A DNA stretch of 22,835 nucleotides from a virus: the IMG/VR virus record IMGVR_UViG_3300030117_007192, positions 1 through 22,835 of that record. One strand, given 5' to 3'. The notes under the pieces were generated by a model. The model saw only the letters and a list, made by a program, of their open reading frames with translations, was not told where the DNA came from and did no database searches. Position 1 is the stretch's first letter. Every line of letters begins with the position of its first letter. Of this stretch, positions 2,191 through 21,006 are shown piece after piece. The position numbers and the translations under genes are program-made.

Positions 2191-2907
2191 ATGAATAAAC
2201 ATTCATTAAACCGTTTCATTGACAAATATTATCTTGGAGGAAATTGCTCTTCTGTTGTAATAAAAAGTGATGGTAGTAACCTATCCACCAGATTTATTAC
2301 AGGCGATAAGAATTTGCTTGGTGAACTTAAAATGTCAGATTGGAAATTTGATAAAGCTGAGCTCGGTGTATATAATACAGAGCAGTTAGTAAAACTACTT
2401 TCAGTTATGTCAGATAATATTTCTATGAATTTGACAAAAGCTGGTGATAAGGTTGTTTCGTTGAAAGTATCGGATAGTTCTTCTGATGTAAATTATATGT
2501 TATCTGATTTATCAGTAATAAATACACCACCAAATCTTAAATCTGTGCCTGAATTTGAGGTAAAGATAAAAGTTGATAAATCTTTTATGAATAAGTTTGT
2601 CGCTGGTAAAGGTGCTCTAGCCGATACTGATAACTTTACAGTATTAACAAATGATGATGGCGTGAGGGTTGTAATTGGTTATGCTGAGATTAATACTAAT
2701 CGTGTTACGTTGCCAGTTGAAACAGAATCTTATGAAGTAATAGATAATGTTTCTTTCAATGCTAATCTATTTAAAGATGTGTTGGTAGCTAATAAAGAAT
2801 GTGAGAGCGCTACATTAGAGGTGAGTTCGCAAGGTTTAGCTCGCATCAATTTTAAAGTTGATGAGTATGATGCGACATACTATTTAGTTGCTGATACAGA
2901 TGTGTAA
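2191..2907 (+). CDS. gp45: Sliding clamp, T4 gp45-like
   Basis: This 238-residue protein is the DNA polymerase processivity clamp. T4 gp45 (228 residues) forms a trimeric ring around DNA, tethers the polymerase and also activates late transcription. The protein has alternating short beta strands and acidic/amphipathic segments, two repeated halves (about 1-115 and 116-238) as expected for clamp folds, and no catalytic motif. Assignment rests on general resemblance to T4-type clamps, on size, and on position between polymerase and clamp loader, which is the standard replisome order in this phage group. It has its own strong SD and upstream gap, so it probably opens an operon. The polymerase tail SIERFF is the likely ligand for its inter-domain pocket. 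The next gene starts immediately after its TAA with no spacer. Confidence 0.88.
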   Translation: MNKHSLNRFIDKYYLGGNCSSVVIKSDGSNLSTRFITGDKNLLGELKMSDWKFDKAELGVYNTEQLVKLLSVMSDNISMNLTKAGDKVVSLKVSDSSSDVNYMLSDLSVINTPPNLKSVPEFEVKIKVDKSFMNKFVAGKGALADTDNFTVLTNDDGVRVVIGYAEINTNRVTLPVETESYEVIDNVSFNANLFKDVLVANKECESATLEVSSQGLARINFKVDEYDATYYLVADTDV

Positions 2908-3669
2908 ATGGAGTCTTATGTAGACAAAGCAAAAGTATCTTTAAAGCCAGTCCATAAAGGACTGGCTAGAGATATGATTATAAGAAATCATTATAGCCGT
3001 AAAATGTCAGCTTGTCGATATACTCTTGGAGTATTTTACAAATCTGATGGTCATAAATTTTTTGATGGTGATACAGAAGATTTTATTGGTGTTGCATGCT
3101 ATGGTTTTCCTGTTGGTAGAAGAGTTGTCGGCTCGATATTCAAAGAAGAGATTATACAAAATAAAAATATCTTAGAATTAAAAAGACTATTTATACACGA
3201 TGGATATGGTAAAAATATTGAGTCTCATGTTATATCTTCTTCTTTTAAATGGATGAAACAATACGCGCCAGATATTAAAGTGTTAGTATCTTATGCTGAT
3301 CCTGAACAATCGCATGATGGTGCTATTTATCAGGCTACTAATTGGATATATCAAGGTTGTGGAGACTTTCAGTTAGCTCCTACATATTCATTAAGATTGA
3401 ATGAAGAGGATGATTGGATGCACAGTAGAAATGTATATTCGAGATATGGTTCAGCAGCTCCTAAAAAATTAGAAAAAGCCATAGGAAGAGATTTCTGGTT
3501 AAAAAAAGAAGCAAGTAAACACAGATACATTTATTTTCTTGGTAATAAAAAAGAGAATAGATATTTTAAAAAAATGATGAAACATCCTGTTATGGATTAT
3601 CCTAAAAACTATAAGCATGATGTGGAAATAATAAAAGTAGAGGTAGAAAATACAAAATGGGAGAATTAG
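2908..3669 (+). CDS. Mom-like DNA modification protein (paralogue 1)
   Basis: This 253-residue protein resembles phage Mu Mom, the GNAT-fold enzyme that converts adenine in DNA to N6-(1-acetamido)adenine and protects it from restriction. Seen here: an N-terminal NHYSR motif (about 27-31), an ELKRLF strand before a helix, and the family signature SYADPEQSHDGAIYQATNW (128-146). The C-terminal half ends in a FWLKKEASKHRYIYF strand. The second paralogue at 5263 repeats all of these in the same order (HYSR, ELRRL, SFAD..H.G.IYKASNF, FWKKRKSKHIYVYY). It lies directly behind the clamp stop (TAA then ATG, no gap) and its 3' end overlaps the clamp-loader start by 13 bases, so it is made together with the replisome. 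The modification product and sequence target are unknown. The N- and C-terminal extensions relative to paralogue 2 may mean a different target. Confidence 0.78.
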   Translation: MESYVDKAKVSLKPVHKGLARDMIIRNHYSRKMSACRYTLGVFYKSDGHKFFDGDTEDFIGVACYGFPVGRRVVGSIFKEEIIQNKNILELKRLFIHDGYGKNIESHVISSSFKWMKQYAPDIKVLVSYADPEQSHDGAIYQATNWIYQGCGDFQLAPTYSLRLNEEDDWMHSRNVYSRYGSAAPKKLEKAIGRDFWLKKEASKHRYIYFLGNKKENRYFKKMMKHPVMDYPKNYKHDVEIIKVEVENTKWEN

Positions 3670-4583
3670 GTTTACATACCCTTTGGGTTGAAAAATACAG
3701 GCCACAAAACTTAGATAAATATATAGGTAATGAACACCTAATTGAAAAGGCTAAGGTGTGGATAGAATCAGGTGATATTCCACATTTATTATTATATGGC
3801 AAAGCTGGTACAGGTAAAACCACATTAGCAAAGATGTTAACAAATAGTATAGATTGTGATTATTTATACATCAACGCATCAGATGAGAGAAAGCTTGAGA
3901 TGGTCAGAGAAAAGGTTAAAAGTTTTGCATCAACTATCGGTTTTAAAGATATGAAGGTTATTATTTTAGATGAGGCTGATTACATTACACCAACATCACA
4001 AGCGGCTCTTCGTAATGTTATGGAAACATTCTCTAAACATTGTAGGTTTATTTTGACTTGTAACTTTGTAGAAAGAATCATTGATCCGATACAGAGTCGT
4101 TGTCAATCATTTCAAATAATTCCACCATCTAAAAAAGAAGTTGCTATACATCTTTCAAATATTTTAAAAGAAGAAAGTATTGATTATTCAAATGATAATG
4201 TGGTTAGTTTAGTACAATCTGGTTATCCTGATATTCGTAGAGTTATTAATTCTGCACAAAGACAAGTTGTTGATGGTAAATTAGTTGTTGATCAACAGGC
4301 ACTAATAGAAAATGATTACAAATTAAGTCTTATTAAAATACTAAAAGAAGAAAGTAAAAAAGATGCTTTTAAGAATATTAGAAAGTTATTAGCTGATTCT
4401 AAGGTTACAGATTTTGCAGATGGTTTTAGATTATTGTATGATACGTTAGATGATTGGGCTGTTGGACATACTGCTGAATGTATTTTGACTTTAGCAGAAG
4501 GTCAGAGAGATGACATAGTTGTAGTGGATAAAGAGATAAACTTTATGGCTACAATGGTAAAAATATTAACAATTATAAAGTGA
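3657..4583 (+). CDS. gp44: Clamp loader large subunit, T4 gp44-like AAA+ ATPase
   Basis: This 308-residue protein is an RFC-type AAA+ ATPase that opens gp45 and loads it at primer-template junctions, working as a gp44(4):gp62(1) complex in T4. The N-terminus carries LWVEKYRPQNL, the RFC box typical of the family. Walker A is GKAGTGKTT (48-56), Walker B is VIILDEAD (101-108) and the trans-acting arginine motif is S147-R148-C149. The remaining C-terminal region is helical and matches a clamp-loader collar. Length agrees with T4 gp44 (319). The start overlaps the Mom-like gene by 13 bases. It is followed after 7 bases by the zinc-ribbon gene and then the probable small subunit. Confidence 0.96.
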   Translation: MGELGLHTLWVEKYRPQNLDKYIGNEHLIEKAKVWIESGDIPHLLLYGKAGTGKTTLAKMLTNSIDCDYLYINASDERKLEMVREKVKSFASTIGFKDMKVIILDEADYITPTSQAALRNVMETFSKHCRFILTCNFVERIIDPIQSRCQSFQIIPPSKKEVAIHLSNILKEESIDYSNDNVVSLVQSGYPDIRRVINSAQRQVVDGKLVVDQQALIENDYKLSLIKILKEESKKDAFKNIRKLLADSKVTDFADGFRLLYDTLDDWAVGHTAECILTLAEGQRDDIVVVDKEINFMATMVKILTIIK

Positions 4584-4590
4584 GGTTATT

Positions 4591-4824
4591 ATGAATATGA
4601 AACCACGAAAACCATTACCACAACCAAAAGTCAAAGTCGATTTAACAAAAGCTGATAATATGAAATGCGAGAAATGTGGTAATTACTCTTTTATACAATC
4701 TTTCTTTCTTAAAAGATTATCACCATTGGTATCGCCTACAGGTGAAGAAGCTATAATACCTATACAGGTTTATGCTTGTGGTAATTGTGGAACTGTACCA
4801 ACAAAGATGATGCCAGATGCCTAA
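4591..4824 (+). CDS. Small zinc-ribbon protein
   Basis: This 77-residue protein has two CxxC knuckles: C26-E-K-C29 in CEKCGN and C63-G-N-C66 in ACGNCGT, 33 residues apart. That is the pattern of a zinc ribbon. The first 25 residues are rich in Lys and Pro and probably disordered. No catalytic motif is present. It sits between the two probable clamp-loader subunit genes, and similar small zinc-ribbon proteins are familiar next to gp62 in marine T4-like phages. A role in DNA or protein binding at the replisome is inferred from position only. Its stop overlaps the next start by 8 bases. Confidence 0.7.
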   Translation: MNMKPRKPLPQPKVKVDLTKADNMKCEKCGNYSFIQSFFLKRLSPLVSPTGEEAIIPIQVYACGNCGTVPTKMMPDA

Positions 4825-5266
4825 TATTAAAAAGAAAGGTTTGTTTGATCATGTAAAGCAAATTACAGATTTTCAAAGTCCTAATTATTGGGATGAGATA
4901 TCAGAAGAAGATAAAAAGACTTGGTCTAATTTTATGATAAATAGATTTTTATCTATGAAAATGGATTGGATAGAAATTGTAAATGAGATTCAAAAATATC
5001 AATTAGAGCCAAAAGAATTATATAAATTTTATACAGATATATTGCCAAAGAAAAGACAATGGTTAAAATATATCAAAGGAGATAAGAAAATGAAGTATCC
5101 TAATTGGGTTTATGAAATAGTAGCTAAAGACTTACAATGTAGTCTAAAAGAAGCTGCTGAAGCTGTAGAAACATATGAGATGTCATATGGTGGTCAAGCA
5201 GAACTAACAGATATGCTAATGAAGTATGGTAAAACAGAGGATGAGTGCCGTAAGATTGGATTATGA
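4817..5266 (+). CDS. gp62: Probable clamp loader small subunit, gp62-like
   Basis: This 149-residue, mostly helical protein is best explained as the small clamp-loader subunit. It begins GLFDHVKQIT, followed by a WSNFMINRFLSM segment that corresponds to the conserved 'FMVNRALS' type region of gp62 proteins, and then an LPKKRQWLKYIK segment like the basic 'P-x-(K/R)-R' stretch after it. It has no ATPase motifs, as expected for gp62, which does not hydrolyse ATP. T4 gp62 is longer (187), and shorter versions are usual in T4-like marine phages. Support comes from these partial similarities and from its place after gp44. The stop TGA overlaps the next ATG (ATGA), coupling it to the second Mom-like gene. 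Confidence 0.68.
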   Translation: MPNIKKKGLFDHVKQITDFQSPNYWDEISEEDKKTWSNFMINRFLSMKMDWIEIVNEIQKYQLEPKELYKFYTDILPKKRQWLKYIKGDKKMKYPNWVYEIVAKDLQCSLKEAAEAVETYEMSYGGQAELTDMLMKYGKTEDECRKIGL

Positions 5267-5895
5267 GTGTAAAAGACTATACCGTAGAATCTGTTAACAG
5301 AAAGTCGGTAAAGAATTTTATTGAAAAATATCATTATAGTCGTAACATAAACGGATTACATTCTGATTATCAATTTGGTTTGTATACAGAGGGAAACTTT
5401 GGTTTACCTAAAATGATAGGAGCCATGTTATATGGAACACCATCTATGCCAGATACAGCGGCTAAATATAATCCGATCAATCCTAATAGGTGTATGGAAT
5501 TAAGAAGGTTGGTTTGTATTGATGATACACCTAAGAATACAGAGAGCTATTTTATTGGTAAAACTTTGAGATGGCTAAAACAAAATACAGATGTAGAGGT
5601 TATAGTTTCCTTTGCCGATCAGCATTATGGTCATTCGGGTGTTATTTACAAAGCTAGTAACTTTGATCATTTTGGAGAAACAGCAAAAGCGAGAGTATTA
5701 ATGGTTGATGGTAAAGAGTATCATCCAAGAACAATGAATCAAAAAGATAAACCTTATGGTCGTGCTATTAAGAAAAGATATTTAAGTGGTGATGAAAATA
5801 TATTTTGGAAGAAGAGAAAATCCAAGCATATTTATGTATACTATCTCAATAAAAAAATCAAAAGACAAATAAAAAAGTTAAATGATAACAATTGA
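5263..5895 (+). CDS. Mom-like DNA modification protein (paralogue 2)
   Basis: This 210-residue protein is a second Mom-type GNAT-fold protein. It has the KYHYSR motif near residue 23-28, a MELRRLV strand, and the signature SFADQHYGHSGVIYKASNF (116-134), which matches the SYADP..GH.GTIYKA.NW pattern of Mu Mom closely. The C-terminus ends in FWKKRKSKHIYVYYLNKK, parallel to paralogue 1 at 2908. It is therefore a genuine diverged duplicate, separated from the first copy by the clamp-loader genes. The family modifies adenine in DNA. Whether this copy is active or has another specificity is unknown. The ATG overlaps the gp62-like TGA by four bases, and the next gene overlaps its 3' end by 14 bases. 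Confidence 0.8.
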   Translation: MSVKDYTVESVNRKSVKNFIEKYHYSRNINGLHSDYQFGLYTEGNFGLPKMIGAMLYGTPSMPDTAAKYNPINPNRCMELRRLVCIDDTPKNTESYFIGKTLRWLKQNTDVEVIVSFADQHYGHSGVIYKASNFDHFGETAKARVLMVDGKEYHPRTMNQKDKPYGRAIKKRYLSGDENIFWKKRKSKHIYVYYLNKKIKRQIKKLNDNN

Positions 5896-6490
5896 ATTAG
5901 TTAAAGATTTAAGTCAAAAAAAAGTTGTAAAAAGTATTATAGAAAATCATCATAGTTATGTAGCATCTAATGACTCAGTAGGTAGAAGAATAGATTGGTT
6001 AGTTTATCATTCGGATTATACAAATGTGTTGGGGCTTGAAAAACCTATAGGGATGATTGGTATAGGATCTTCTGTTTATCCATGTCCTAAAGATATATTG
6101 AATTTCTTAGGTAAAAAGGCAGATGAGTATAAAGAACCTAAACATTTCAATACTATAGCAAACAATTGGAGATTCTGTATGACAAAATCAATAAAAAATG
6201 CAGGAACACAGATATTGAAAAAGGTTAGAAAACAAGCACCTATAGAGTGGAAGAAAAAGTATGGAGATGATTTGAAGTGGTTAATTACTTTTGTCGCTGG
6301 TGGTAATAATGGTGCTGTCTACAAAGCAGACAATTGGAAACAGATTGGTCAAACTGCTGGATTGGCGAAAGAAAGAAAATCATTTTCAGTTAAATGGAAT
6401 AGTGCAGAATATTTAAAAGAAACTTTTTTACCACCAACTGGTGAAAATAAAAAAATAATTTTTATAAAAAAGCTTGACTTGTATAGGTAA
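5882..6490 (+). CDS. DUF4338/DruA-like relative of Mom (third copy)
   Basis: This 202-residue protein is distantly related to its two Mom-like neighbours. It keeps NHHSY (22-26) in place of the HYSR motif. The signature region is FVAGGNNGAVYKADNW (137-152) followed by KQIGQTAG (153-160). The segment before it has NNWRFCM and then LKKVRKQAPIEWKKKYG. That layout (N-x-RF, helix, P-x-x-W-x-x-x-YG, FV...G..Y.A.NW..IG.T.G) is what I associate with DUF4338, the core family of DruA in Druantia defence. The usual Asp of FAD/YAD/FVD is replaced by Ala139-Gly140, so activity could be altered. It overlaps the preceding gene by 14 bases and ends the replisome operon. Function in the phage is unknown; a DNA-modifying or DNA-binding role is inferred. 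Confidence 0.6.
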   Translation: MITIELVKDLSQKKVVKSIIENHHSYVASNDSVGRRIDWLVYHSDYTNVLGLEKPIGMIGIGSSVYPCPKDILNFLGKKADEYKEPKHFNTIANNWRFCMTKSIKNAGTQILKKVRKQAPIEWKKKYGDDLKWLITFVAGGNNGAVYKADNWKQIGQTAGLAKERKSFSVKWNSAEYLKETFLPPTGENKKIIFIKKLDLYR

Positions 6491-6528
6491 AAGTGTGTAT
6501 ATTTAATCGTTAAATCAAGGAGTATAAT
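6491..6528 (+). promoter_or_regulatory. Short leader with AAGGAG site before a TTG start
   Basis: This 38-base AT-rich gap ends the run of overlapping replisome genes. AAGGAG (6517-6522) lies six bases before a TTG at 6529, the same layout as the clamp gene (AAGGAG, six bases, ATG). It therefore supports initiation at TTG for the following gene. A promoter could lie here, but no clear boxes are visible. Confidence 0.4.
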
Positions 6529-6972
6529 TTGGAGCAATCTTTATTAGATATTAAAAGAGGTGTGACTATGAGTAAAAAAATAATAAAAGAATCTAAAAAC
6601 AAAAAAGAGGTAAATTCTTATTTAACAGGTGATAATGGTGACATTGTAACAATGATGGAAAAAGAATGGCCGGTGATGACGGCTGAGTTCCGTAGATTAC
6701 AAAGAGAACAATATGAATTGTTCTTAAAAAAACAACATGACTATGGTCCAGGTAATATTTCTGTAGGTACTATGTTACAAACAGAAGAAGAAATACAATT
6801 ATCACTTACAGGTCTTTGGTTTCGTATGAACGATAAGATACAGAGACTTAAAAATATGTTGATGAGTAAAAGAGAATCTGCTGTTGATGAACCAATGGAA
6901 GATGCTTACTTAGATGTAAGTAATTATGGCATTATGGCTACCATAGTTAAGAATGGTAAATGGGGTAAGTGA
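6529..6972 (+). CDS. DUF1599/Nmad1-like nucleotide-modification-associated protein
   Basis: This 147-residue helical protein matches the DUF1599 pattern, which I recall being named nucleotide modification associated domain 1 (Nmad1): K-x-x-DYG near residues 66-73 (KKQHDYGPGN), then a WFRMNDKIQRL helix with D102-K103, then an acidic MEDAYLDVSNYGIM helix. The alternating acidic helices recall all-alpha nucleotide pyrophosphohydrolase-like folds, but I cannot show activity. Two starts compete. TTG 6529 has AAGGAG at ideal spacing. ATG 6568 (residue 14) has AGAGG seven bases upstream and would give 134 residues. The conserved domain lies after both. It follows three Mom/DUF4338-like genes, which fits a role in making or handling modified nucleotides. 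Confidence 0.66.
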   Translation: MEQSLLDIKRGVTMSKKIIKESKNKKEVNSYLTGDNGDIVTMMEKEWPVMTAEFRRLQREQYELFLKKQHDYGPGNISVGTMLQTEEEIQLSLTGLWFRMNDKIQRLKNMLMSKRESAVDEPMEDAYLDVSNYGIMATIVKNGKWGK

Positions 6973-7127
6973 TGAAACAGCCAATAAAAATTATAAGAGA
7001 TATGGTAGATAAGTATCCAAATGATATGGAACTTGGTGCTAGAGTTCGTTGGTATATAAAATGGTTATATGAGGGTATAACAAAAAAAGTTAAGGAGTAT
7101 AAAGATGACAACAAATGGAGTATATAA
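6972..7127 (+). CDS. Small protein of unknown function (51 aa)
   Basis: This is a short open frame whose ATG shares one base with the preceding TGA (TGATG junction), which is how most genes in this window are joined. The predicted 51-residue peptide is basic and amphipathic (MKQPIKIIRDMVDKYP at the start, then a WYIKWLYEG stretch and a Lys-rich end). No motif is recognised. The Shine-Dalgarno is weak (GGGGTAAG), so it probably depends on coupling to the Nmad1-like gene. Without it a 130-base coding gap would be left in an otherwise gapless region, which favours a real gene. It overlaps the next small gene by 23 bases. Confidence 0.5.
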   Translation: MKQPIKIIRDMVDKYPNDMELGARVRWYIKWLYEGITKKVKEYKDDNKWSI

Positions 7128-7239
7128 GTATGAGTGTAAGGCTGGTACTTATGAATCAGATACATTGATTGGTTTGTTATGGGAAAGGTTTACTCATAAG
7201 TTGTGGCATCTGAGAAAGCACGGAAGGTGGATGGATTGA
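7105..7239 (+). CDS. Small protein of unknown function (44 aa)
   Basis: This short gene has a clear Shine-Dalgarno AAGGAG (7093-7098) seven bases before its ATG. The 44-residue product starts MTTNGVYKYECKAG and ends with a basic, aromatic segment (FTHKLWHLRKHGRWMD). No domain is recognised. Its TGA (7237-7239) overlaps a TTG (7236-7238), the likely start of the nuclease gene, so it may exist partly to couple that gene. The strong ribosome site and exact fit between neighbours are the evidence that it is translated. Confidence 0.55.
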   Translation: MTTNGVYKYECKAGTYESDTLIGLLWERFTHKLWHLRKHGRWMD

Positions 7240-9134: not shown

Positions 9135-9385
9135 GTTTAAACTTTAGAGATGATTTGATAAAAGCTAGTGAAAAACAATTTGAGGCTCTTATCCATAAAC
9201 ATAGAATAAATGTTGAAGTTTTATTAGAAAACACAGTTGGTGTAGCTGAACATTCTGATATTATGGAAACTATAGAAAAAGAGATTGCTGTTATAGCGGA
9301 GTATGAGGATAAATTGTCAGTTCTACGAAAGTATTTTAAAAGTGGTTGGGCTGCTGGTAAAAACAAAGAGGTTTTAAATGGCTAA
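9131..9385 (+). CDS. Unknown small coiled-coil-like protein (84 aa)
   Basis: This 84-residue acidic, helical protein has no recognised domain. The central part (SDIMETIEKEIAVIAEYEDK) shows heptad-like hydrophobic spacing, suggesting a helical hairpin or coiled coil. Comparable short proteins with a VGV-x-(D/E)H motif are, as I recall, found in marine T4-like phages, but I can assign no role. Initiation is at GTG 9131, overlapping the preceding TGA in a GTGA junction, with GGGAG shortly upstream. The 3' end overlaps the first glycosyltransferase gene by 8 bases, so this is the last gene before the carbohydrate block. Confidence 0.6.
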   Translation: MSLNFRDDLIKASEKQFEALIHKHRINVEVLLENTVGVAEHSDIMETIEKEIAVIAEYEDKLSVLRKYFKSGWAAGKNKEVLNG

Positions 9386-10769
9386 AAAGAAGATTTTGTT
9401 GTTCTCAGATGATTTGAGAATGTCATCTGGTGTGGGAACAATGTCAAGAGAAATTGTTTTAGGCACTTTAGATAAATTTGATTGGGTTCAAGTTGGTGGT
9501 GCTATAAAACATCCTGATGAGGGTAAATTTATAGATATGAATGAATCAGTTCGTAAAGATACTGGCATAAAAGACGCTTACCTAAAAATAATACCAACTT
9601 CAGGTTACGGTACACCTGAACTATTAAGACATTTGTTGTCAGTAGAAAAACCAGATGCTATACTACATTACACCGACCCAAGATTTTGGGAATGGTTGTA
9701 TCAGATGGAACACGAGGTAAGACAAAACATACCAATTTTCTATTACAATATTTGGGATGACTTACCATATCCAATGTGGAATGAGCCATTTTATGAGAGT
9801 TGTGATTTGATTATGAACATATCCAAACAGACAGTAAATATTGTTAATAATGTGCGTAAGGATGTTCCAACGAATGAATGGAATAATACTTATGTTCCAC
9901 ATGGCATAAATGAAAAAAACTTTTATCCTGTAAAAAAAGGTCATAAAGAATATGGTGATATGCTCAGTTTAAAGAGAAAGGTAACTCAAGATAAAGAGTA
10001 TGATTTTATAATATTTTGGAATAATAGAAACATTCGTAGAAAGTTACCTGGTGATGTTATAATGGCATACAAAACATTTTGTGATATGTTACCAAAGGAA
10101 AAGGCTGAAAAATGCGCACTAGTTATGCATACCCAACCAAAAGATCCTAATGGTACAGATTTACCAGAGGTTGTTTCTGCTGTATGTCCTGATTATGATG
10201 TTATATTTTCTACTCAAAAATTAGATGATAAAAATCTTTGCTATATTTACAATATTGCTGATGTTCAACTTAATATGGCATCTAATGAAGGATTTGGATT
10301 AGGAACTTGTGAGGCTTTGATGTGTGGAACTCCAGTATCAGTTAATGTTACTGGTGGATTACAAGACCAATGTGGGTTTAAGTACAAAGACAAGTTACTA
10401 ACCTATGAAGATTACAGTTGGGTTCACTCACTACATGATGATAAAAAGTGGAAAGGTAATTCTGATTTAACTTGGGGTGAGTGGGTAAAACCAGTTTGGC
10501 CATCCAATCGTAGTTTGCAGGGTTCAATACCAACTCCATATATATTTGATGATAGACCAAGATTTGAAGATTTTGCTGATGCTATTAAAGAGTGGTATGA
10601 TATGGGTAAAGAAGAAAGAGATAGGTGTGGTATGTTAGGACATGAGTTTGTTATGAGTGATGATGCTATGATGAGTGCTAGTGCTATGTGTAGAAATTTT
10701 GTAGATCATATGAATACAGCATTTGATAAGTGGTCGCCAAGAAAACGTTATACAATTTTTAAAGGTTAG
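9378..10769 (+). CDS. GT4-type glycosyltransferase (GT-B fold)
   Basis: This 463-residue protein is a predicted retaining glycosyltransferase. The N-terminal Rossmann half starts KKILLFSDDLRMSSGVGTMSRE, where the SGVG loop replaces the usual G-G-x-E/x motif and typically contacts the acceptor. The C-terminal donor-binding half contains NEGFGLGTCEALMCGTP with the E-x7-E motif (E304 and E312) and a VTGG loop. Donor sugar and acceptor cannot be deduced. It is followed after 8 bases by a second GT4-type gene with the same E-x7-E layout, so the two may add successive sugars. The C-terminal 80 residues are unusually rich in Met and Asp. It opens the carbohydrate block, with its ATG overlapping the upstream gene. 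Confidence 0.88.
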   Translation: MAKKKILLFSDDLRMSSGVGTMSREIVLGTLDKFDWVQVGGAIKHPDEGKFIDMNESVRKDTGIKDAYLKIIPTSGYGTPELLRHLLSVEKPDAILHYTDPRFWEWLYQMEHEVRQNIPIFYYNIWDDLPYPMWNEPFYESCDLIMNISKQTVNIVNNVRKDVPTNEWNNTYVPHGINEKNFYPVKKGHKEYGDMLSLKRKVTQDKEYDFIIFWNNRNIRRKLPGDVIMAYKTFCDMLPKEKAEKCALVMHTQPKDPNGTDLPEVVSAVCPDYDVIFSTQKLDDKNLCYIYNIADVQLNMASNEGFGLGTCEALMCGTPVSVNVTGGLQDQCGFKYKDKLLTYEDYSWVHSLHDDKKWKGNSDLTWGEWVKPVWPSNRSLQGSIPTPYIFDDRPRFEDFADAIKEWYDMGKEERDRCGMLGHEFVMSDDAMMSASAMCRNFVDHMNTAFDKWSPRKRYTIFKG

Positions 10770-10777
10770 GAGACAAT

Positions 10778-12112
10778 ATGAAACCGTTAGTTTTAGTTAC
10801 AGGTCCACCAGCAACAAGAAGTGGATATGGTGCTCATACAAGAGATTTAATTCACTCTTTACTAAGAATGGATAAATTTGAAGTAAAAATAAATTCATTA
10901 AGGTGGGGAAATACACCTATGAATGCTCTAAATGCTGAAAATCCTAAAGATAAATTGATAATAGATAGGTTGTTAAAAGAAAATAGTATGGATAGACAAC
11001 CTGATATCCATTTTCAAATAAGCGTACCAAATGAATTTACACCCGTAGGGAAGTACAATATAGGAATAACTGCTGGTATTGAAAATACTGCTCCAAAAGC
11101 GGAATGGGTTGAAGGTTTAAATAGAATGGATATGAATATAGCAGTATCTCATTTTGTTAAAAATACTTTTCAAGCTCTTGTTTATGATAAATTAAATGAT
11201 CAGCAACAAAAAATAGGAGAGTTGAGACTTGTAAAACCAATGGAAGTTTTATTTGAGGGTGTTGATTTGGACATCTATAAAAAGACTAAAGATTTTTCTA
11301 AAGAGCTTGTCGATGAAATGAATAAAATAGAAGAGAAGTTTTTATTTTTATACACAGGTCATTGGTTGCAGGGTGATCTTGGAGAGGATAGAAAAGATAC
11401 AGGTATGTTGGTTAAAACATTTTTAGAGACATTTAAAAATAAAAAAAGACCACCTGCTTTGTTATTAAAAACTAGTGGTGCTACATTTTCAATTTTAGAT
11501 AGAAATTCTATGTTAGAAAAAATAAATGAAATAAAATCAAAAGTTAAGGGTAAGTTACCTAATGTTTATCTACTACATGGAGACTTGGAAGATGAAGAAA
11601 TAAATGAACTTTATAATCACCCAAAGGTAAAAGCTCATATTACTTTCACACATGGTGAAGGATTTGGTCGTCCACTATTAGAAGCTTGTTTTTCTGAAAA
11701 ACCTATAATTGCTCCTGATTGGAGTGGTCAAAAAGACTTTCTAAATAAAAATAATGCTGTTCTTTTACCAGGTGGTTTAATTGATGTCCATCCTTCAGCA
11801 GTTCCAAAGGAAATGTTACAAGAGGGTGCAAAATGGTTTAGTGTTAATTATCAGTACGCTGGTCAAATTATGTTTAAAGTTTTTAAACAATATAAACAAT
11901 TTACTATGGCTGCTAAACGTTTATCGATGGCTAATAGAGCCTTTTCTTTAGAAAATATGGATAAAAAATTTGAAGAGATATTAAATAAATGTCTACCAAA
12001 GTTTGAAGAACAGCCAATGCCAGTAAGTCTCAAATTACCTAAACTAAAAAAGGTTAGTAAACCAGCTGAAGCTCCAAAAATGAATCTACCAAAATTAAAG
12101 AAGGTGAAGTAA
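10778..12112 (+). CDS. GT4-type glycosyltransferase with Lys/Pro repeat tail
   Basis: This 444-residue GT-B protein starts KPLVLVTGPPATRSGYGAHTRD, a nucleotide-fold strand followed by a glycine-rich acceptor loop. In the C-terminal half HGEGFGRPLLEACFSEKP holds E294 and E302 of the GT4 E-x7-E motif, and APDWSGQKDF follows in the donor pocket. After residue about 405 the enzyme fold ends and a basic, Pro-rich tail begins in which LPKLKKV occurs twice (420-426 and 437-443). The tail is probably disordered and may tether the enzyme to a partner, membrane or nucleic acid. AGGAG lies just before the ATG within the end of the previous gene. The last A of its TAA is the first base of the next ATG. 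Confidence 0.88.
   Translation: MKPLVLVTGPPATRSGYGAHTRDLIHSLLRMDKFEVKINSLRWGNTPMNALNAENPKDKLIIDRLLKENSMDRQPDIHFQISVPNEFTPVGKYNIGITAGIENTAPKAEWVEGLNRMDMNIAVSHFVKNTFQALVYDKLNDQQQKIGELRLVKPMEVLFEGVDLDIYKKTKDFSKELVDEMNKIEEKFLFLYTGHWLQGDLGEDRKDTGMLVKTFLETFKNKKRPPALLLKTSGATFSILDRNSMLEKINEIKSKVKGKLPNVYLLHGDLEDEEINELYNHPKVKAHITFTHGEGFGRPLLEACFSEKPIIAPDWSGQKDFLNKNNAVLLPGGLIDVHPSAVPKEMLQEGAKWFSVNYQYAGQIMFKVFKQYKQFTMAAKRLSMANRAFSLENMDKKFEEILNKCLPKFEEQPMPVSLKLPKLKKVSKPAEAPKMNLPKLKKVK
12035..12106 (+). repeat. Two in-frame copies encoding LPKLKKV
   Basis: Two 21-base in-frame units (12035-12055 and 12086-12106) encode the same heptapeptide LPKLKKV at the C-terminus of the second GT4-type enzyme. The codons differ (tta/cta, cct/cca, cta/tta), so the peptide rather than the DNA has been kept. 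This suggests a short linear binding motif. Confidence 0.75.
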
Positions 12113-12588
12113 TGGAAAAAAGAACAGATTGTCCTTTATGTAAAGACTTACATGATAATTGTGTAGTGGAGGAAACTAAAGATGACAATGGAAATAATTT
12201 TGAATCATACATATGTTTTGGTTGTGGAATGACAACTAATTCTTATATGGCTATAGATAGTGAACATTTAGAAAAGTCTACTGAAAATAACACAGCTTTA
12301 ATGAATGATTTAAAAATAATAGATGATGAAAGAGATTTAGTTTGGTATCCATCTGTGGTTAATATGGGAGAAAAAGGAATAATATATCCTGATGGTAAAC
12401 CAAATGATTGGTATTGGTATTATGCTAAAATAGTAGATATACCTGAGGAAGATAGAGATAAATATGATGGACATAGTAAAAGGTTAGATATAGAAAACCC
12501 TCAAAAATTTGGCCAATTTGAATTTATGGATGCTTGTAAAGCTATGGGTATAATGTTAGAGGGTGAAGGAGATAAAGTAGACTTATAA
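12112..12588 (+). CDS. Zinc-ribbon protein of unknown function (158 aa)
   Basis: This protein begins with a zinc-ribbon-like module: C7-P-L-C10 and C35-F-G-C38, separated by an acidic loop with an extra C17. Residues 45-158 form an acidic domain rich in Trp and Tyr (DLVWYPSVVNMG, NDWYWYYAKIVDI). No catalytic motif is visible. I believe relatives occur in marine T4-like phages as conserved hypotheticals. It lies between glycosyltransferase genes and may be older than the carbohydrate insertion. Its TAA and the next ATG share one base. Confidence 0.65.
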   Translation: MEKRTDCPLCKDLHDNCVVEETKDDNGNNFESYICFGCGMTTNSYMAIDSEHLEKSTENNTALMNDLKIIDDERDLVWYPSVVNMGEKGIIYPDGKPNDWYWYYAKIVDIPEEDRDKYDGHSKRLDIENPQKFGQFEFMDACKAMGIMLEGEGDKVDL

Positions 12589-13028
12589 TGGCTAAAATAG
12601 CTTACAATTGGACTAAGGTAAAACGTGGAGATATTATAGAATTTAAATATCGAAATACGAAAGGTAGTATTTTAAGAAGAACCATATTGGTTTTAGAACC
12701 TAAACTGGCAAATAAAGCAAAAAATAAATCAAGTGATTATCTATTACATGGTATACAACTAGAAGTTTCAAATGTGTCTACAAATACTAAATTACAAAAA
12801 ATATTAGAGGCTGCTGGTGATGTTAAGGTGGTGGATGAAAAAAAGAAAATATACAGAGTTGATATAGATAAAAGCACTAAACAAATATACTCTGAGTTAA
12901 AATCTGTAATAAAACAGAATGGTATTTATAGAACTTATAACTATGACAGAGCTAAAAAAAGTCAGGTATTTTTAGAAGATTTAAGGTTGCCACCATCATT
13001 CGTAAAGGAATTGATCGGTGATAATTAG
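12588..13028 (+). CDS. Conserved phage-type unknown protein (146 aa)
   Basis: This 146-residue basic protein has an N-terminal beta-rich segment (VKRGDIIEFKYRNTKG, then RRTILVLEPK) that looks like a small SH3-type barrel, and a helical, Lys-rich second half ending in LRLPPSFVKELIGDN. No enzyme motif is seen. Together with the preceding zinc-ribbon gene it is the only non-carbohydrate pair inside the block, so it probably belongs to the phage core. A nucleic-acid binding role is possible from the basic charge and barrel-like start, but this is a guess. The next GTG start lies inside its 3' end (11-base overlap). Confidence 0.6.
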   Translation: MAKIAYNWTKVKRGDIIEFKYRNTKGSILRRTILVLEPKLANKAKNKSSDYLLHGIQLEVSNVSTNTKLQKILEAAGDVKVVDEKKKIYRVDIDKSTKQIYSELKSVIKQNGIYRTYNYDRAKKSQVFLEDLRLPPSFVKELIGDN

Positions 13029-13680
13029 TTACGGTATTACAGTTTATGATGAGGCTGAAGAATTAAAAAAGTTATTAAATACTTTAATTGATAATGTAGA
13101 TTTAGGACTGGATGAAATTATAATTTGTGTGGATGGTAATGATGAAGCAGTTGAGTTTGAACTTGAGACTTTCACACAAAATCATTTTGATACAATTGAT
13201 ATTAAAGTATATCAGAGGAGTCTTAATAAAGATTTTGCATCTCAAAAAAATTCAATTATAGAAAATTCAAAGGGTGATTATATATTTCATATAGATGCTG
13301 ATGAATATCCTAATGAAATATTACTACAACAGTTAAAAGAGATATTAAAGATAAATGATGTTGATTTGGTTTGGATTCCACGCGTAAATACAATTGAGGG
13401 TATGGAAGAAGTGCACATAAAAAAATGGGGTTGGAGAATATCAGAAAAGAATTGGGTGAACTATCCAGACTATCAGGCGCGAGTATTTCGGCGTGATAGT
13501 GAAATTCGTTGGGAGAGACCTCTTCACGAGGTTATAAGAGGTTACAAAACATATTCACATTTACCACCACATGAAGAGCTAAGTTTGTATCATCCAAAAA
13601 CAATTGAAAAGCAAGAGAAACAGAATATGTTTTATAATAAAAATTTTAGTAAAGAGATGAATGTCAGGAGGGGAGTATGA
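13018..13680 (+). CDS. GT2-family glycosyltransferase
   Basis: This 220-residue GT-A enzyme starts ISYGITVYDEAEELKKLLN, the usual opening of family 2 with acidic residues after the first strand. It then has IIICVDGNDEA, where the sugar-nucleotide uracil is normally bound, and HIDADEYPNE with D93-A-D95 as the metal-binding DxD. ERPLHEVIRGYK in the last third resembles the catalytic-loop region of short GT2 enzymes related to LPS core transferases. The enzyme is compact with no membrane helices, so it probably acts in the cytoplasm on a soluble or peripheral acceptor. Translation is from GTG 13018 with AAAGGA eight bases upstream. It overlaps the following gene by four bases. Confidence 0.87.
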   Translation: MIISYGITVYDEAEELKKLLNTLIDNVDLGLDEIIICVDGNDEAVEFELETFTQNHFDTIDIKVYQRSLNKDFASQKNSIIENSKGDYIFHIDADEYPNEILLQQLKEILKINDVDLVWIPRVNTIEGMEEVHIKKWGWRISEKNWVNYPDYQARVFRRDSEIRWERPLHEVIRGYKTYSHLPPHEELSLYHPKTIEKQEKQNMFYNKNFSKEMNVRRGV

Positions 13681-15119
13681 TATTTTGGAGAATAGTAGAT
13701 AATAAAGTTTATGCTGTTGAAGAAACAGATACTCTTGGATTTTCAAAATCAGATGGTTTAGCAATACCTGATGATTATTTAGATAGACAAGAATTTATGG
13801 TTATGAGAACAGCACATGGAATAGGTGATTGGGGTATCATATCTGCTATGCCAAGACTTCTTAAAGAAAAGTATCCTAACTGTAAAGTATATGTACCATC
13901 AACTAAAATGTTAGAAAATTTATTTTCTGAACATTTTAATAATTGGAATTCTTGGAATAGTAAGTTCGGAAATGCGAAAAGTATATTTAAACACAATCCT
14001 TATGTTGATGAGTTTGTAGATCAATATGATGGTGAAATTTTTCACGACCACTATAGAATTTATGACAATGAGAATATAGATACACCCTTATTAGAACAAA
14101 TGTTAAAGTTCTGGCAATTTAAAGAAAATGAATATAAAGATTCTCAACCAGAACTATACTGGTCTGATGAGGAAAAAAGTTTAGGTGATGCTATAATAAA
14201 AGAGTATACTGATGAAAATGAATTCGGTTGTTTATTAATATCAGATAGATATGACTATACTATGGATGAACTAATAGAGGATAAAATTGACGAATTCATA
14301 CCACATTTTTATTGGACTGAACGACCAATAGAACAAACTGAATTTGATTATATAAATAAAGCTTTGGATATGCGAAATATGGATGTTAGAATTCAGTTGT
14401 ATATAAAATCTAAAGCTAAATATAATGTAGGAAATCAATGTGGTACTTCACAAATAGTAACTAGGTATTCTGATGTTTATAGTGTACAAAGACAATTTCC
14501 TATAGCTCACAACCTAGTTAGAGGTGAGCATTTATTAGATGATGAATATAAAAGAGTTCATTTAGCTAGAGCACCTGATAAATTTGAATCAAAAACTACG
14601 ACATCTCTAAAATTTAAAGCAGATTTGATAGATTTTTTAGGCGATAGATACAAAGATAAAAATGTTATTGAAATAGGATGCTCATTAGGTTATACATCAC
14701 ACGCTCTAAGTGGTTACTTTAACAAAGTAACAGCTGTGGATTTTGATCCAACTAGAATACAATCAGCTAAAGATTTTAGTAAAGATAAAACTAATATTGA
14801 TTTTATTGTAAAAGATGTTTACAGAACTGCTTGGGATTTTGATAAAAACCATCAGGTAGTTTTTATAGATTGTGTGCATGATTATCCATTTGTAAAAAAT
14901 GATATTATAAATGCTATAAATTATTTTGACAAACCAATGTTGATTTTTGATGACTATGGATTGTTTCCAAATAGTGTTATGAAAGCTGTAAATGAATTTA
15001 TAGATCAAGGTGTGTTGGAAGTTATAACAAAGATAGGTCATAAAAAAGATGTTGTTTTTGAAAAAACAGCGCATAAAATATTAAGAGATTATGAGGGTTT
15101 AATATGTCAAGTAAAATAG
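13677..15119 (+). CDS. Two-domain protein: GT9-like N-terminus plus SAM methyltransferase
   Basis: This 480-residue protein has two parts. Residues about 40-290 resemble a GT9 (heptosyltransferase-like) GT-B fold: MRTAHGIGDWGIISAMPRLL matches the family's GxGD start, and KYPNCKVYVPS and HNPYVDEFV have the spacing expected after it. Residues about 310-480 are a class I SAM methyltransferase with motif I NVIEIGCSLGYTS (329-341), the acidic end of strand 2 in VTAVDFDP, and FIDCVHDYPF as the post-strand-4 motif. The fusion suggests that transfer and methylation of one sugar are coupled. The GT9 half is weaker evidence and may be degenerate. ATG 13677 overlaps the upstream TGA (ATGA); the next gene starts 16 bases before its stop. 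Confidence 0.72.
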   Translation: MIFWRIVDNKVYAVEETDTLGFSKSDGLAIPDDYLDRQEFMVMRTAHGIGDWGIISAMPRLLKEKYPNCKVYVPSTKMLENLFSEHFNNWNSWNSKFGNAKSIFKHNPYVDEFVDQYDGEIFHDHYRIYDNENIDTPLLEQMLKFWQFKENEYKDSQPELYWSDEEKSLGDAIIKEYTDENEFGCLLISDRYDYTMDELIEDKIDEFIPHFYWTERPIEQTEFDYINKALDMRNMDVRIQLYIKSKAKYNVGNQCGTSQIVTRYSDVYSVQRQFPIAHNLVRGEHLLDDEYKRVHLARAPDKFESKTTTSLKFKADLIDFLGDRYKDKNVIEIGCSLGYTSHALSGYFNKVTAVDFDPTRIQSAKDFSKDKTNIDFIVKDVYRTAWDFDKNHQVVFIDCVHDYPFVKNDIINAINYFDKPMLIFDDYGLFPNSVMKAVNEFIDQGVLEVITKIGHKKDVVFEKTAHKILRDYEGLICQVK

Positions 15120-15793
15120 TTTATACTTCAATATTTGGTGGTTATGATGATGTTCAAAAACAAAATTTACCAGATGGTTGGGATTGGAAATGCTTTAGTG
15201 AAGAAAATAGTTTACCCTTATATGAAGATAACAATAGAAATGCTAAAAGGTTTAAAGTATTGCCACATAGATATTTAAAAGATTATAGATACAGCATTTT
15301 TATAGATGGTAATATGACTGTCAAAGGTAATTTAGATGATTTAATTGATAAATATTTAAGTGATTCTAATGTAGCATTTTTTAGTCACGCCAATAATAGT
15401 TTAGATGCCAGAAATTCTGCTTATGATGAAGCTCAGACTATTTTTAATTTAGGTGCAAAAAATATGGAAAGGACACCTGAAAGAGGTGTTTTAAACTATA
15501 AAGATAATCCATACCTAATACAAAAACAAATGGAAAGATATAGAATACTTAGGTATCCAGCAAATCATGGATTGATAACAGGTATGGTTATTTTAAGAAG
15601 GCACAATGAAGAAGATTGTATTAAGACTATGGAAGATTGGTGGACTGAAATAAAATATAACAGTAAAAGAGATCAGCTAAGTTTTAATTATTGTGCTTGG
15701 AAGAATGATTTAAATTTTAATTATATGGATGGTGACTCTAGAAATAATGAATACTTTTATAGAGATACAAAGCCACATATAGGTAAAAAATGA
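15104..15793 (+). CDS. DUF616-type putative glycosyltransferase
   Basis: This 229-residue protein matches DUF616, a GT-A-like group that includes plant TOD1/MUCI70-type proteins and many bacterial polysaccharide-locus proteins. It has KIVYTSIFGGYDDVQ at the start, an R-N-A-K-R-F-K segment before HRYLKDY, then FIDGNMTV with D68-G-N70 in the place of a DxD, and R189-D-Q-L-S-F-N in the family's conserved RDQLSF motif near the end. Enzymatic activity is established only for few members, so donor and linkage are unknown. It overlaps both neighbours (16 and 4 bases). Cytoplasmic; no signal peptide. Confidence 0.8.
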   Translation: MSSKIVYTSIFGGYDDVQKQNLPDGWDWKCFSEENSLPLYEDNNRNAKRFKVLPHRYLKDYRYSIFIDGNMTVKGNLDDLIDKYLSDSNVAFFSHANNSLDARNSAYDEAQTIFNLGAKNMERTPERGVLNYKDNPYLIQKQMERYRILRYPANHGLITGMVILRRHNEEDCIKTMEDWWTEIKYNSKRDQLSFNYCAWKNDLNFNYMDGDSRNNEYFYRDTKPHIGKK

Positions 15794-16554
15794 AAAACGT
15801 AGTCTTTATTCCTAACATAAATTTGGGTGATGGTAGAAATAATTCATATCATTATTCTGTAAAAAGCTGGAAACATTGGTGTGATAACAATAACTCTGAG
15901 CTATTAGTATGGGAAGATTTACTTTATCCAGTAGACTATATGAAAATAACTTGGCAAAGATATTATTTATTCGATATATTAGATTCTAATAAAATAGACT
16001 ATGATCAAATACTGATGGTTGATGCTGATACAATTGTTCATCCTGATTGTCCTAATTTCTTTGATGAAACAGATGGTAGGTATTGTGGTGTTAGGGTAGA
16101 TGGATGTTATGAATGGGTTTTGAGAAGCATAAGAGGATTTGGTGATAAATTGTTTGATGGTATGAGGATACATCCTTGGAACTACATCAATGGTGGATTT
16201 CAGATAGTTAATGAAAACCATGAGAATTTTTTTGATGCTATGAAAAAATACTATAATGATAATAGTCAGGAAATATCTGATACTATAGCTGAATTAAGAT
16301 GTGGTACTGATCAAACTATAGTAAATTATATGCTCCACAAAGAAAAGGTTGATGTTAAATATTTACCAAGTTGTTATAATTTACAAGATTTATACAGAAA
16401 AAATTTATTATTCTTAACTGGTCAAGAATATTGGACTGATGATTTGCATCATTTGGATGCGGGTTGGGTTTACCACTTTAATTCCATACCACCAAATCCA
16501 ATGAGTAGAGATGCTAATTATTGGATAGAGAGAACTTATAAGGAATTATTTTGA
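15790..16554 (+). CDS. GT-A-fold glycosyltransferase, GT8-like
   Basis: This 254-residue protein is a probable metal-dependent glycosyltransferase. ILMVDADTIVHPD contains D78-A-D80, the DxD that holds the nucleotide-sugar phosphate and Mn. NYINGGFQIVN in the middle and CGTDQTIVNYML further on follow the order of GT8 and related retaining transferases (NGG then D-Q). GWVYHFNSIPP near the end supplies a His as in GT8-type active sites. Family assignment beyond GT-A is not certain. Its ATG lies four bases before the end of the DUF616 gene. TTG of the next gene overlaps its TGA. Confidence 0.8.
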   Translation: MKNVVFIPNINLGDGRNNSYHYSVKSWKHWCDNNNSELLVWEDLLYPVDYMKITWQRYYLFDILDSNKIDYDQILMVDADTIVHPDCPNFFDETDGRYCGVRVDGCYEWVLRSIRGFGDKLFDGMRIHPWNYINGGFQIVNENHENFFDAMKKYYNDNSQEISDTIAELRCGTDQTIVNYMLHKEKVDVKYLPSCYNLQDLYRKNLLFLTGQEYWTDDLHHLDAGWVYHFNSIPPNPMSRDANYWIERTYKELF

Positions 16555-16979
16555 ATAGGAAGATAATTGGTTTTACTAGTGGTTATTTTGATATCATACA
16601 TCCTGGTCATGTAATGATGTTTGAGGAGTGTAAATTATATTGTGACTATTTGATTGTGGCTGTTAATGAATATAAAGTTAAGACAAAACAGCCAGATGGT
16701 AGACATAAAAATGAACCTATATGGACTCCAAAAGAAAGACTTATGATGGTTGAGTCAAATAAAAATGTAGATCAAGCTTTTTTGTATGATGGTGAACCAG
16801 CACTTTACGAATACTTATCTGAGAATGTGGATTGGATAGATGTTCGCATATTAGGAGAAGATCATAGAGGAAAGCCATTTACTGGAGATGACTTGTCAAT
16901 AGAAATAATATTCAATAGTAGAGATCATGATTATAGTACCACTAATACTATAGCTAAAATTATAAAGGAAAGAGTCTAA
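16551..16979 (+). CDS. Cytidylyltransferase-like nucleotidyltransferase (TagD/HldE type)
   Basis: This 142-residue enzyme of the HxGH nucleotidyltransferase superfamily activates a phosphorylated alcohol or sugar with a nucleotide, as in CTP:glycerol-3-phosphate cytidylyltransferase. TSGYFDIIHPGHVMMFEECK carries H17-P-G-H20, the signature ATP/CTP site. IVAVNE follows as the second strand, TPKERLMMVES matches the ERxxxLxxx helix, and DYSTTNTIAKI near the end is the counterpart of the RTxGISTT motif. Length is that of TagD. Its place among glycosyltransferases suggests it makes a CDP- or ADP-activated donor used locally. Start codon is TTG at 16551, with AGGA six bases upstream and overlap with the previous TGA (TTGA); no ATG lies near. 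Confidence 0.85.
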   Translation: MNRKIIGFTSGYFDIIHPGHVMMFEECKLYCDYLIVAVNEYKVKTKQPDGRHKNEPIWTPKERLMMVESNKNVDQAFLYDGEPALYEYLSENVDWIDVRILGEDHRGKPFTGDDLSIEIIFNSRDHDYSTTNTIAKIIKERV

Positions 16980-17728
16980 TGAACATAGAATTTATATTTG
17001 CTGAATTTGGTTTAAGGTCTAATGCTAATCAACCAGATAGTTTTACTGATGAGCATAGATTAGATCCCACATACTCCTCTGTAAAGAAATTTTTTCCAGA
17101 GGCTAAGCTAACTCTTTATACTGATGTAGCTGATTTAGCTAAGAACTATTCTGATGTTGAGGTAAGGTTAGTTGATGTGAATAAAAGTCCATTCTCAAAA
17201 TCAAATCACAGGTGGGGTTGGCATTGTTGTGATTATTATGAAGCTAAAGGTTTGTTAGAATCAACTGCTGATGTAGCTATATCAGTAGACTCTGATTTGA
17301 TGTTTGTGTCTAACGAAATTAAAACAATTTTACCGATAACTAAAAGGTTTGGAGTTTGTGTTCCAACTAATGAAAGACAGATGGTTAAAATTGATGGGAT
17401 ATACACTAGGGGGAATGATGGCGATTATCGTTTAGATGAAGATGAGAGTCGTGGTAACTTACTAACTTATGATTTATGGTGGTGTAGTTTCAATACAGAG
17501 GATAACAGAGGAAGAGCTTGGTTAAGTGAATTCTGTGAACTAATGGAAACAAATCCAAAAAGAGCACCACTACAAATGAGTAGAGCTAGTTGGAATACTG
17601 GTATACATCCATATTCAATGCCACAACAATGGGGAGTTGGAAGTGGTTATATAGGATGTGGTAATGAAATTATACTACACGTAGGACATACAAATGTTCA
17701 GGATCATTATTTAGAAAAGAGGATATGA
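16979..17728 (+). CDS. Putative GT-A-like glycosyltransferase
   Basis: This 249-residue protein has the outline of a nucleotide-diphospho-sugar transferase. ADVAISVDSDLMFVS contains D104-S-D106, a plausible DxD metal site after a hydrophobic strand, and TLYTDVADL earlier gives a first strand and loop. A WGWHCCDYYEAKG segment with two adjacent Cys precedes it, and PQQWGVGSGYIGCGNEII with a C-terminal HVGHT follows. I do not know the family. The DxD context and the neighbours make a sugar transfer role likely. It starts at ATG 16979, sharing one base with the previous TAA, and its TGA overlaps the next ATG. Confidence 0.65.
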   Translation: MNIEFIFAEFGLRSNANQPDSFTDEHRLDPTYSSVKKFFPEAKLTLYTDVADLAKNYSDVEVRLVDVNKSPFSKSNHRWGWHCCDYYEAKGLLESTADVAISVDSDLMFVSNEIKTILPITKRFGVCVPTNERQMVKIDGIYTRGNDGDYRLDEDESRGNLLTYDLWWCSFNTEDNRGRAWLSEFCELMETNPKRAPLQMSRASWNTGIHPYSMPQQWGVGSGYIGCGNEIILHVGHTNVQDHYLEKRI

Positions 17729-18432
17729 TGGCTACACTTAAAGAATTAACAATTAAATATGATGTAGATGCTCTTGAATTAGGATATACAAGACACTATT
17801 CTGATATATTAGAAAGTAGTAGATACGATATTACAAAAGTTTTAGAGATAGGTGTAGAGACTGGCAGATCACATAGAATGTGGTTAGAGTATTTTGAAAA
17901 TGCGACCATTTATGGTTATGATATTTTTCAGTATGGTGTTGATGAATTTAATAAACTACAGGAGGGTAATCCCTACTTAGACAGATCAGTAATGTTTAAA
18001 GGAGATCAAGCAAACATAGTTGACCTACAAAGATTTATATCAGAGAATGGTAGTGATTTTGATCTAATTATAGATGATGGTGGCCACACTATGGAACAAA
18101 TGCAGATATCGCTAAATTATTTATGGGATCAAGTTAAGCCGGGTGGTTTATATGTTATTGAAGATTTACATAGTTGCAGTAACCAATGGCCAACTTTATA
18201 TGGTTATGAAGTTGTAAAAGAGAATGATACTTTAACTACTGATTTATTGGATAGCTTTTCAAATAATGATGATTACGTTACTGAAACAAATTACATACCA
18301 GCTTCTAGAATTAGTAAAATTAGAAGTGAGTTGGATTGGTGTGAAACAAGAATTGGTGTACAAAGCTATGTTAGTAAAAAAGGTCAAAGATATTTATGGC
18401 CAACGATGTTATGTTTCATGAGAAAGAAATGA
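17725..18432 (+). CDS. Class I SAM-dependent methyltransferase (sugar O-methyltransferase-like)
   Basis: This 235-residue protein has motif I LEIGVETGRSHRMW (40-53), an IYGYDI strand end with the ribose-binding acid, and I116-D-D-G-G-H121 followed by PGGLYVIEDLHS. The IDDGGH motif with a following histidine recalls metal-dependent sugar O-methyltransferases such as MycE and the TylF/macrocin group, in which Asp and His bind Mg. An O-methyltransferase acting on a sugar hydroxyl is therefore the best reading; the substrate is unknown. Two adjacent ATGs (17725 and 17728) can serve as start, with AGAGG just before. The end overlaps the next gene by four bases. Confidence 0.83.
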   Translation: MMATLKELTIKYDVDALELGYTRHYSDILESSRYDITKVLEIGVETGRSHRMWLEYFENATIYGYDIFQYGVDEFNKLQEGNPYLDRSVMFKGDQANIVDLQRFISENGSDFDLIIDDGGHTMEQMQISLNYLWDQVKPGGLYVIEDLHSCSNQWPTLYGYEVVKENDTLTTDLLDSFSNNDDYVTETNYIPASRISKIRSELDWCETRIGVQSYVSKKGQRYLWPTMLCFMRKK

Positions 18433-20996: not shown

Positions 20997-21006
20997 GGAG
21001 AATGAT

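Follow-up and report, generated by a model that had tools for sequence, protein, structure and literature searches.

Proteins of the DruA family (DUF4338, Pfam PF14236), which are encoded in type I Druantia and as stand-alone bacterial genes, have already been reported to be GNATs (PMC10853773), as has Mom (PF25680), the adenine-modifying protein of phage Mu, according to references given in PMC7824862. The title of PDB entry 8bv8 describes the S124A form of Mu Mom as inactive. Fusions of Mom with restriction endonucleases are on record for jumbo phages (PMC7824862), and DruA-like folds, found with Phold, for Synechococcus phages (PMC12774648). A statement on the function of DruA within Druantia was not found in the open-licence literature. 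Here, we describe a small phage relative of DruA, termed DruL, encoded in a stretch of viral DNA of 22,835 nucleotides (hereafter, the window), and compare it with these systems.

DruL aligns with DruA over the full-length core and shares with it the motifs NN-x-RF, N-x-x-S/T, W-x-x-x-Y, TFV, and G-x-x-Y-x-A-x-N-W-x-x-x-G-x-T-x-G, but it is shorter (~200 versus ~300–400 aa), lacks the N-terminal extension and the Druantia partner genes, and has lost the Asp of FVD. With Mom (Mu Mom, 8bv8), it has in common the predicted GNAT fold, the His, the Arg, the Ser/Thr-124 position, and G-x-x-Y-x-A-x-N-[WF], whereas it differs in carrying Ala or Gly at the D149 position and in having a longer helix and an extra W-K-x-x-Y-G-D segment, as in DruA. 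The Synechococcus phage proteins resemble DruL in being phage-borne members of the DruA superfamily in or beside a clamp-loader or polymerase operon, yet they are longer (~350–385 aa), have a large C-terminal extension, and form a separate branch that tblastn did not link to DruL. The jumbo-phage fusions, in which a GNAT-type DNA modifier is tied to a restriction-type nuclease, are comparable to the pairing of DruL with a putative nuclease seen in many of its loci; however, the fusions carry a fused Mom domain, whereas DruL is a separate protein of the DruA branch, next to a probably HinP1I-like family that has a methyltransferase as its partner in other loci.

The window covers part of a T4-like phage, including genes for a family B polymerase, a glutaredoxin-like protein, a sliding clamp, and both clamp loader subunits, and the genes for MomA, MomB, and DruL are threaded through this replication operon (Table 1). 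The order clamp–MomA–gp44–gp62–MomB–DruL is kept in the close relatives of the window, and the DUF1599 gene, which encodes a domain known as nucleotide-modification-associated, is found at the same place after DruL in these relatives. Farther downstream, a long block (9378–22440) contains ORFs that resemble, by eye in the ORF list, glycosyltransferases, FkbM/SAM-type methyltransferases, a cytidylyltransferase, and cupin-like proteins, perhaps for glycan or nucleotide-sugar decoration. The HinP1I-like nuclease was absent from the window when searched with its family profile, which does detect known carriers. The earlier note on this DNA had linked the gene to Druantia protection; no Druantia genes, including that of the large helicase DruE, lie near DruL on this fragment contig, of which the largest ORF (614 aa) is the DNA polymerase, and the partner genes are instead replication genes, Mom genes, and, in other phages, a restriction-enzyme-like gene.

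Table 1. Genes of the replication operon in the window and positions of interest within DruL
Feature	Position	Strand	Basis or remark
DNA polymerase, family B (T4 gp43-like), truncated on its 5' side by the contig border	30..1874	+	PHROG 262
Sliding clamp (T4 gp45-like)	2191..2907	+	PHROG 223
MomA, Mom family, directly after the sliding clamp gene	2908..3669	+	PF25680, E 6.5e-43
Clamp loader large subunit (T4 gp44-like)	3657..4583	+	PHROG 168
Clamp loader small subunit (T4 gp62-like)	4817..5266	+	PHROG 225
MomB, Mom family, after gp62; ORF overlaps the start of the DruL ORF by 14 nt	5263..5895	+	PF25680, E 4.6e-44
DruL, DruA-superfamily protein with predicted GNAT fold, 202 aa; ATG at 5882, stop at 6490	5882..6490	+	Profile, alignment, structure model
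DruL H24-S25-Y26	5951..5959	+	Alignments: every DruL and phage DruA has the His and Tyr; counterpart of HY in Mom
DruL R97 of NNWRFC	6170..6172	+	Alignments: invariant across DruL, DruA, and Mom
DruL N106-A-G-T109 loop	6197..6208	+	Helix start after strand 92–100; T109 aligns with Mu Mom Ser124
DruL A139-G140	6296..6301	+	Site at which Mom FAD/YAD and some DruA FVD have the Asp
DruL G144-x-x-Y-x-A-D-N-W-x-x-x-G156	6311..6349	+	Core motif present in all of DruL, DruA, and Mom
DUF1599 protein, next gene downstream of DruL	6565..6972	+	31.6 bits against a cut-off of 25; PHROG 1485

DruL is a member of the DruA (PF14236) superfamily. It contains NNWRFCM at residues 94–100, W-x-x-x-Y-G at 123–128, and FVAGGNNGAVYKADNWKQIGQTAG from 137, and it matched PF14236 over residues 4–160 with E = 2e-5 and 24.3 bits, by which the window protein falls below the gathering score of 27 bits that serves as the membership threshold. 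Many of its relatives exceeded this cut-off (e.g., L057, L073, and L008 with 40.5, 33.9, and 31 bits, respectively), and all members of a diverse alignment (A2; 48 of 48) matched PF14236 at E ≤ 0.01. The match of DruL to Mom (PF25680; E = 0.013, 15.6 bits) was also below the gathering score (27.1), and that to the Mom-like PHROG 1384 (E = 1.9e-7) was confined to residues 97–161, while PADLOC and NCBIfam scans and a sequence search of solved structures returned no match for DruL. When an HMM built from 17 DruL proteins only was run on the pool of locus ORFs, it retrieved annotated or canonical DUF4338 proteins (L130, L136, L137, and L131; E from 3e-9 to 9e-7) as well as Mom proteins (E from 3e-5 to 9e-4).

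Profile–profile comparison gave 97.4% for DruL and canonical DruA, 99.9% for DruL and the phage DruA proteins of ~240 aa, 90.8% for DruL and Mom, and 73% for Mom and canonical DruA; in addition, the canonical DruA L130 had a weak Mom match (E = 0.0078). The canonical set comprised three proteins, its small size being due to the two canonical records obtained from PLSDB plasmids and to a survey of 195 genomes from the same phylum as the MAG match, which added none. The ~240-aa phage DruA group bridges DruL and canonical DruA, and was found through a locus (L007) that carries one of its members beside DruL. Five GNAT-type genes stand in a row at this locus (L007:7307-10547), namely those of a 233-aa DruA (PF14236, E = 1.8e-16), DruL, and three Mom-family proteins. 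The resemblance to DUF4338 and the kinship of DruA-type with Mom-type proteins, both proposed in the earlier note, are thus borne out by HMM retrieval and profile–profile scores, as well as by the joint alignment and the shared GNAT fold described below. The gene had also been counted there as a third copy; DruL is a relative from the DruA branch and not a copy of MomA or MomB, which are true Mom-family proteins (E about 6e-43 and 5e-44).

A first AlphaFold model of DruL, based on 17 close sequences, was discarded (pLDDT 60), and a second, based on 48 diverse sequences, reached a pLDDT of 86.4 and a pTM of 0.81. The latter is a GNAT fold, for which Foldseek listed GNATs and Mu Mom at E ~1e-5. 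After VIA re-alignment, Mu Mom (8bv8) was the top solved match (Z = 14.5, rmsd 3.8, 161 residues) and a generic GNAT was the next entry (Z = 13.5), a margin of about 1, with many solved GNATs at Z 12–14.5 over 130–160 residues. In the joint alignment, DruL, DruA, and Mom share the His, the Arg (R97), the Ser/Thr (T109), and G-x-x-Y-x-A-x-N-[WF], and the position of Mom Ser124 (Thr109 in the window DruL) is Ser or Thr in 48 of 48 aligned members. The N106-A-G-T109 loop would correspond to the position of the acyl-CoA loop of GNATs. DruL is basic (pI 9.7 for the window protein and 9.6 on average in the family), as are Mom proteins, which lends weak support to DNA modification.

In Mom FAD/YAD, the Asp is D149 of the 241-aa Mu ORF, and we take it to be catalytic in Mom; all 41 DruL proteins aligned have Ala or Gly in its place. 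At the same position, the phage DruA group is non-acidic, L136 has Asp, and L130 has Glu. As the loss is seen in both DruL and the phage DruA group, it is a property of phage branches rather than of the window copy; the replacement at A139-G140, to which the earlier note had drawn attention, is real but not peculiar to this copy. The dN/dS values of DruL against seven relatives ranged from 0.08 to 0.27, and the DruL family is under strong purifying selection. A changed activity of DruL is possible.

Relatives of DruL numbered 42 with a single-sequence query and 196 with an alignment query, nearly all of them from uncultured viruses, and the gene is present in ~200 phage contigs, often inside replication operons. 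DruL was not found in 50,697 isolated phages when the window protein or a divergent member served as the tblastn query. When redundant contigs were counted, 51 of 120 loci had gp33-like (late transcription coactivator) and gp59-like (helicase loader) genes no farther than 3 kb from DruL, and gp44 or polB was nearby in about 16 of the 120. Dependence of DruL on Mom was rejected, as Mom is absent from three DruL records of 173–177 kb. One DruL gene (L112:3139-3699) comes from a Bacilli MAG obtained from horse faeces; the contig, of 7.8 kb, may be a stray one of phage origin.

Another DruA branch, distinct from DruL and with longer proteins, was present in 31 records of isolated phages and marine single-cell viruses, for the most part Synechococcus and Pelagibacter phages. 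In isolated cyanophages and a pelagiphage, these relatives (~350–385 aa) are located at gp44/gp62 or gp43 positions (L117, L132, L134, L135, L161, L162, L164, and L165); among the records opened, the gene lies between gp44 and gp62 in S-PRM1, S-SSM7, S-T4, S-CREM1, S-SM2, S-SRM01, and S-SCSM2R, adjoins gp43 in HTVC008M, and is near gp47 in S-B68. Most of them bear the annotation hypothetical or ‘putative cytoplasmic protein’, and two annotators named them ‘methylcarbamoylase mom’ and ‘iron-binding protein’. Nine isolated phages examined for Mom had none. A second phage DruA branch (~395–432 aa) was observed in L113, L118, L119, L120, and Pelagibacter phage Mosig (L133:5551-6849), and a member of this branch is also carried, in addition to DruL, by each of the records G002, G198, G200, and G203.

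The gene next to DruL encodes, in many loci, a protein of a 220–245-aa family without a name in Pfam, PHROG, or NCBIfam, for which the NCBIfam scan gave scattered weak matches only. Judging from sequence comparison, this family is probably a HinP1I-like restriction endonuclease. A 24-member profile of the family ranked R.HinP1I (1ynm) first of 177,635 PDB sequences (E = 0.029), and one of the 24 members matched R.HinP1I PF11463 with E = 2.3e-4 and 21.2 bits, below the cut-off of 25. Moreover, D47, S58, K60, and Q68 are invariant in 24 of 24 members, in agreement with the D...[E/Q/S]xK active-site pattern, and the invariant S-x-K aligns with Q-x-K of 1ynm. A match of an 8-row profile to MJ0754 in the PDB was taken as chance, since the 24-row profile ranked HinP1I first and did not return MJ0754. 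According to the nuclease profile, with known carriers as a positive control, most DruL genes, including that of the window, have no nuclease partner.

A search from the nuclease side yielded 57 loci, which were reduced to 25 non-redundant proteins by removing near-copies (90%). DruL was within 100 nt of 13 of these (a proportion biased by seeding the search with DruL-adjacent members), a PF01555 methyltransferase was within 100 nt of six and within 5 kb of a further two, and four had neither; the methyltransferases beside the nuclease matched PF01555 at E ~1e-45. DruL (13 loci) and the methyltransferase (eight loci) occurred together in none of the 25 (hypergeometric P = 4.6e-4), an exclusivity not obviously affected by the seeding; the contigs are fragments and in part related, and the relatedness inflates the statistics. 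Over whole records, PF01555 was absent in 12 of 12 with DruL and above the cut-off in five of eight without it, and none of the eight nuclease records without an adjacent DruL had DruL elsewhere on the record.

DruL is located either upstream or downstream of the nuclease, with overlaps or 3–13 nt gaps, and well-supported branches require that nuclease pairing changed at least four times on the DruL tree and DruL pairing at least twice on the nuclease tree. One such pair is that of L193, with the nuclease at 5893–6558 and DruL at 6561–7136. The nuclease-first DruL group has the same gene order as the nucleases paired with a methyltransferase and is closer to them in sequence, suggesting that the partner of the nuclease was swapped in place. 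A HinP1I-like nuclease overlapping or abutting a PF01555 methyltransferase was observed at L202:4589-5970, L206:5926-7340, and L215:3947-5292, the last being a pair with a 4-nt overlap in the isolated Synechococcus phage S-CAM22; this combination is probably an undescribed restriction-modification pair of cyanophage-type viruses. Compared with such a type II pair, the DruL pair has the same nuclease-like family and equally tight pairing but a different modifier. Three nuclease members (L184:6001-6759, L185:6001-6738, and L187:6001-6738) had neither a nearby DruL nor a clear methyltransferase, and a conserved ~420-aa protein follows there.

We consider it reasonably likely that DruL is a phage GNAT-fold transferase that modifies the phage’s own DNA, like Mom or a modification methyltransferase, and that it stands for the methyltransferase beside the HinP1I-like nuclease. 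The observations underlying this reading are the superfamily, the predicted fold, the conserved residues, selection, the operon position, and the exclusive alternation with the methyltransferase. During replication, DruL would add a small group of the acyl type, or a derivative of one, to phage DNA bases. In phages of the window type, it would act beside two Mom enzymes as a solitary modifier, presumably against restriction, and in nuclease-paired phages it would replace the cognate methyltransferase, giving a restriction-modification pair with a GNAT modifier. We infer DNA as the substrate, acyl-CoA or a similar donor, the chemical product, and DNA cleavage by the partner. Points against DNA modification are that the Mom Asp is absent, that the HinP1I match is below the cut-off and found in one of 24 members, that most DruL genes are without the nuclease, and that a GNAT could target protein.

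Acylation of a protein rather than DNA, whether of the replisome, of the host, or of the partner nuclease to tame it, appears unlikely, although GNATs mostly act on proteins or small molecules, the generic GNAT scored nearly as well as Mom on the DruL model, and the position of DruL among replisome genes would fit. The specific sequence link of DruL is to Mom, a DNA modifier; the alternative partner of the nuclease in the same slot is a DNA methyltransferase; and no nuclease to tame is found beside most DruL genes. We give still less credence to the idea that the DruL–nuclease pairing simply results from insertion of both genes at the same hot spots within replication operons, with DruL serving another replication function. 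DruL is indeed often found at gp33–gp59, an insertion site of other small genes, and the nuclease member L180 is at gp59 without DruL, but this idea is at odds with the occurrence of both gene orders with such tight spacing, with several independent pairings, and with the exclusive methyltransferase alternation. The inactive decoy suggested in the earlier note, taken here as a catalytically dead DruA mimic shielding the phage from type I Druantia, is in keeping with the loss of the Asp from every DruL and with the resemblance to DruA, yet we reject it as highly improbable because of the strong purifying selection and the Ser/Thr kept at the Mom Ser124 position; the Arg, His, Tyr, Asn, and Trp are likewise kept throughout, canonical DUF4338 proteins can also be without the Asp (L130), the gene is widespread in phage contigs, and the repeated pairing with a restriction-like nuclease would be left unexplained.

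In the open-licence literature, we found neither the DruL family, a direct DruA–Mom sequence link, nor mention that phage relatives of DruA lie in replication operons, and likewise no DruL/methyltransferase alternation beside a HinP1I-like nuclease; the genomic context of DruL appears to be the new part of the finding. Returning to DNA modification as the role of DruL, we tentatively extend it, at somewhat less than even confidence, to the DruA superfamily as a third class of DNA-modification enzymes beside methyltransferases and Mom, with methyltransferase-free restriction-modification pairs in phages and with the DruA of Druantia itself a DNA modifier. The alternation of DruL and a methyltransferase beside one nuclease family offers a testable function for the whole DruA superfamily, namely covalent DNA marking. 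If this is true, restriction-modification would gain a new enzyme class, there would be an explanation for the way in which many uncultured T4-like phages may keep their genomes safe, and a gene of bacterial defence would be tied to one of phage anti-restriction.
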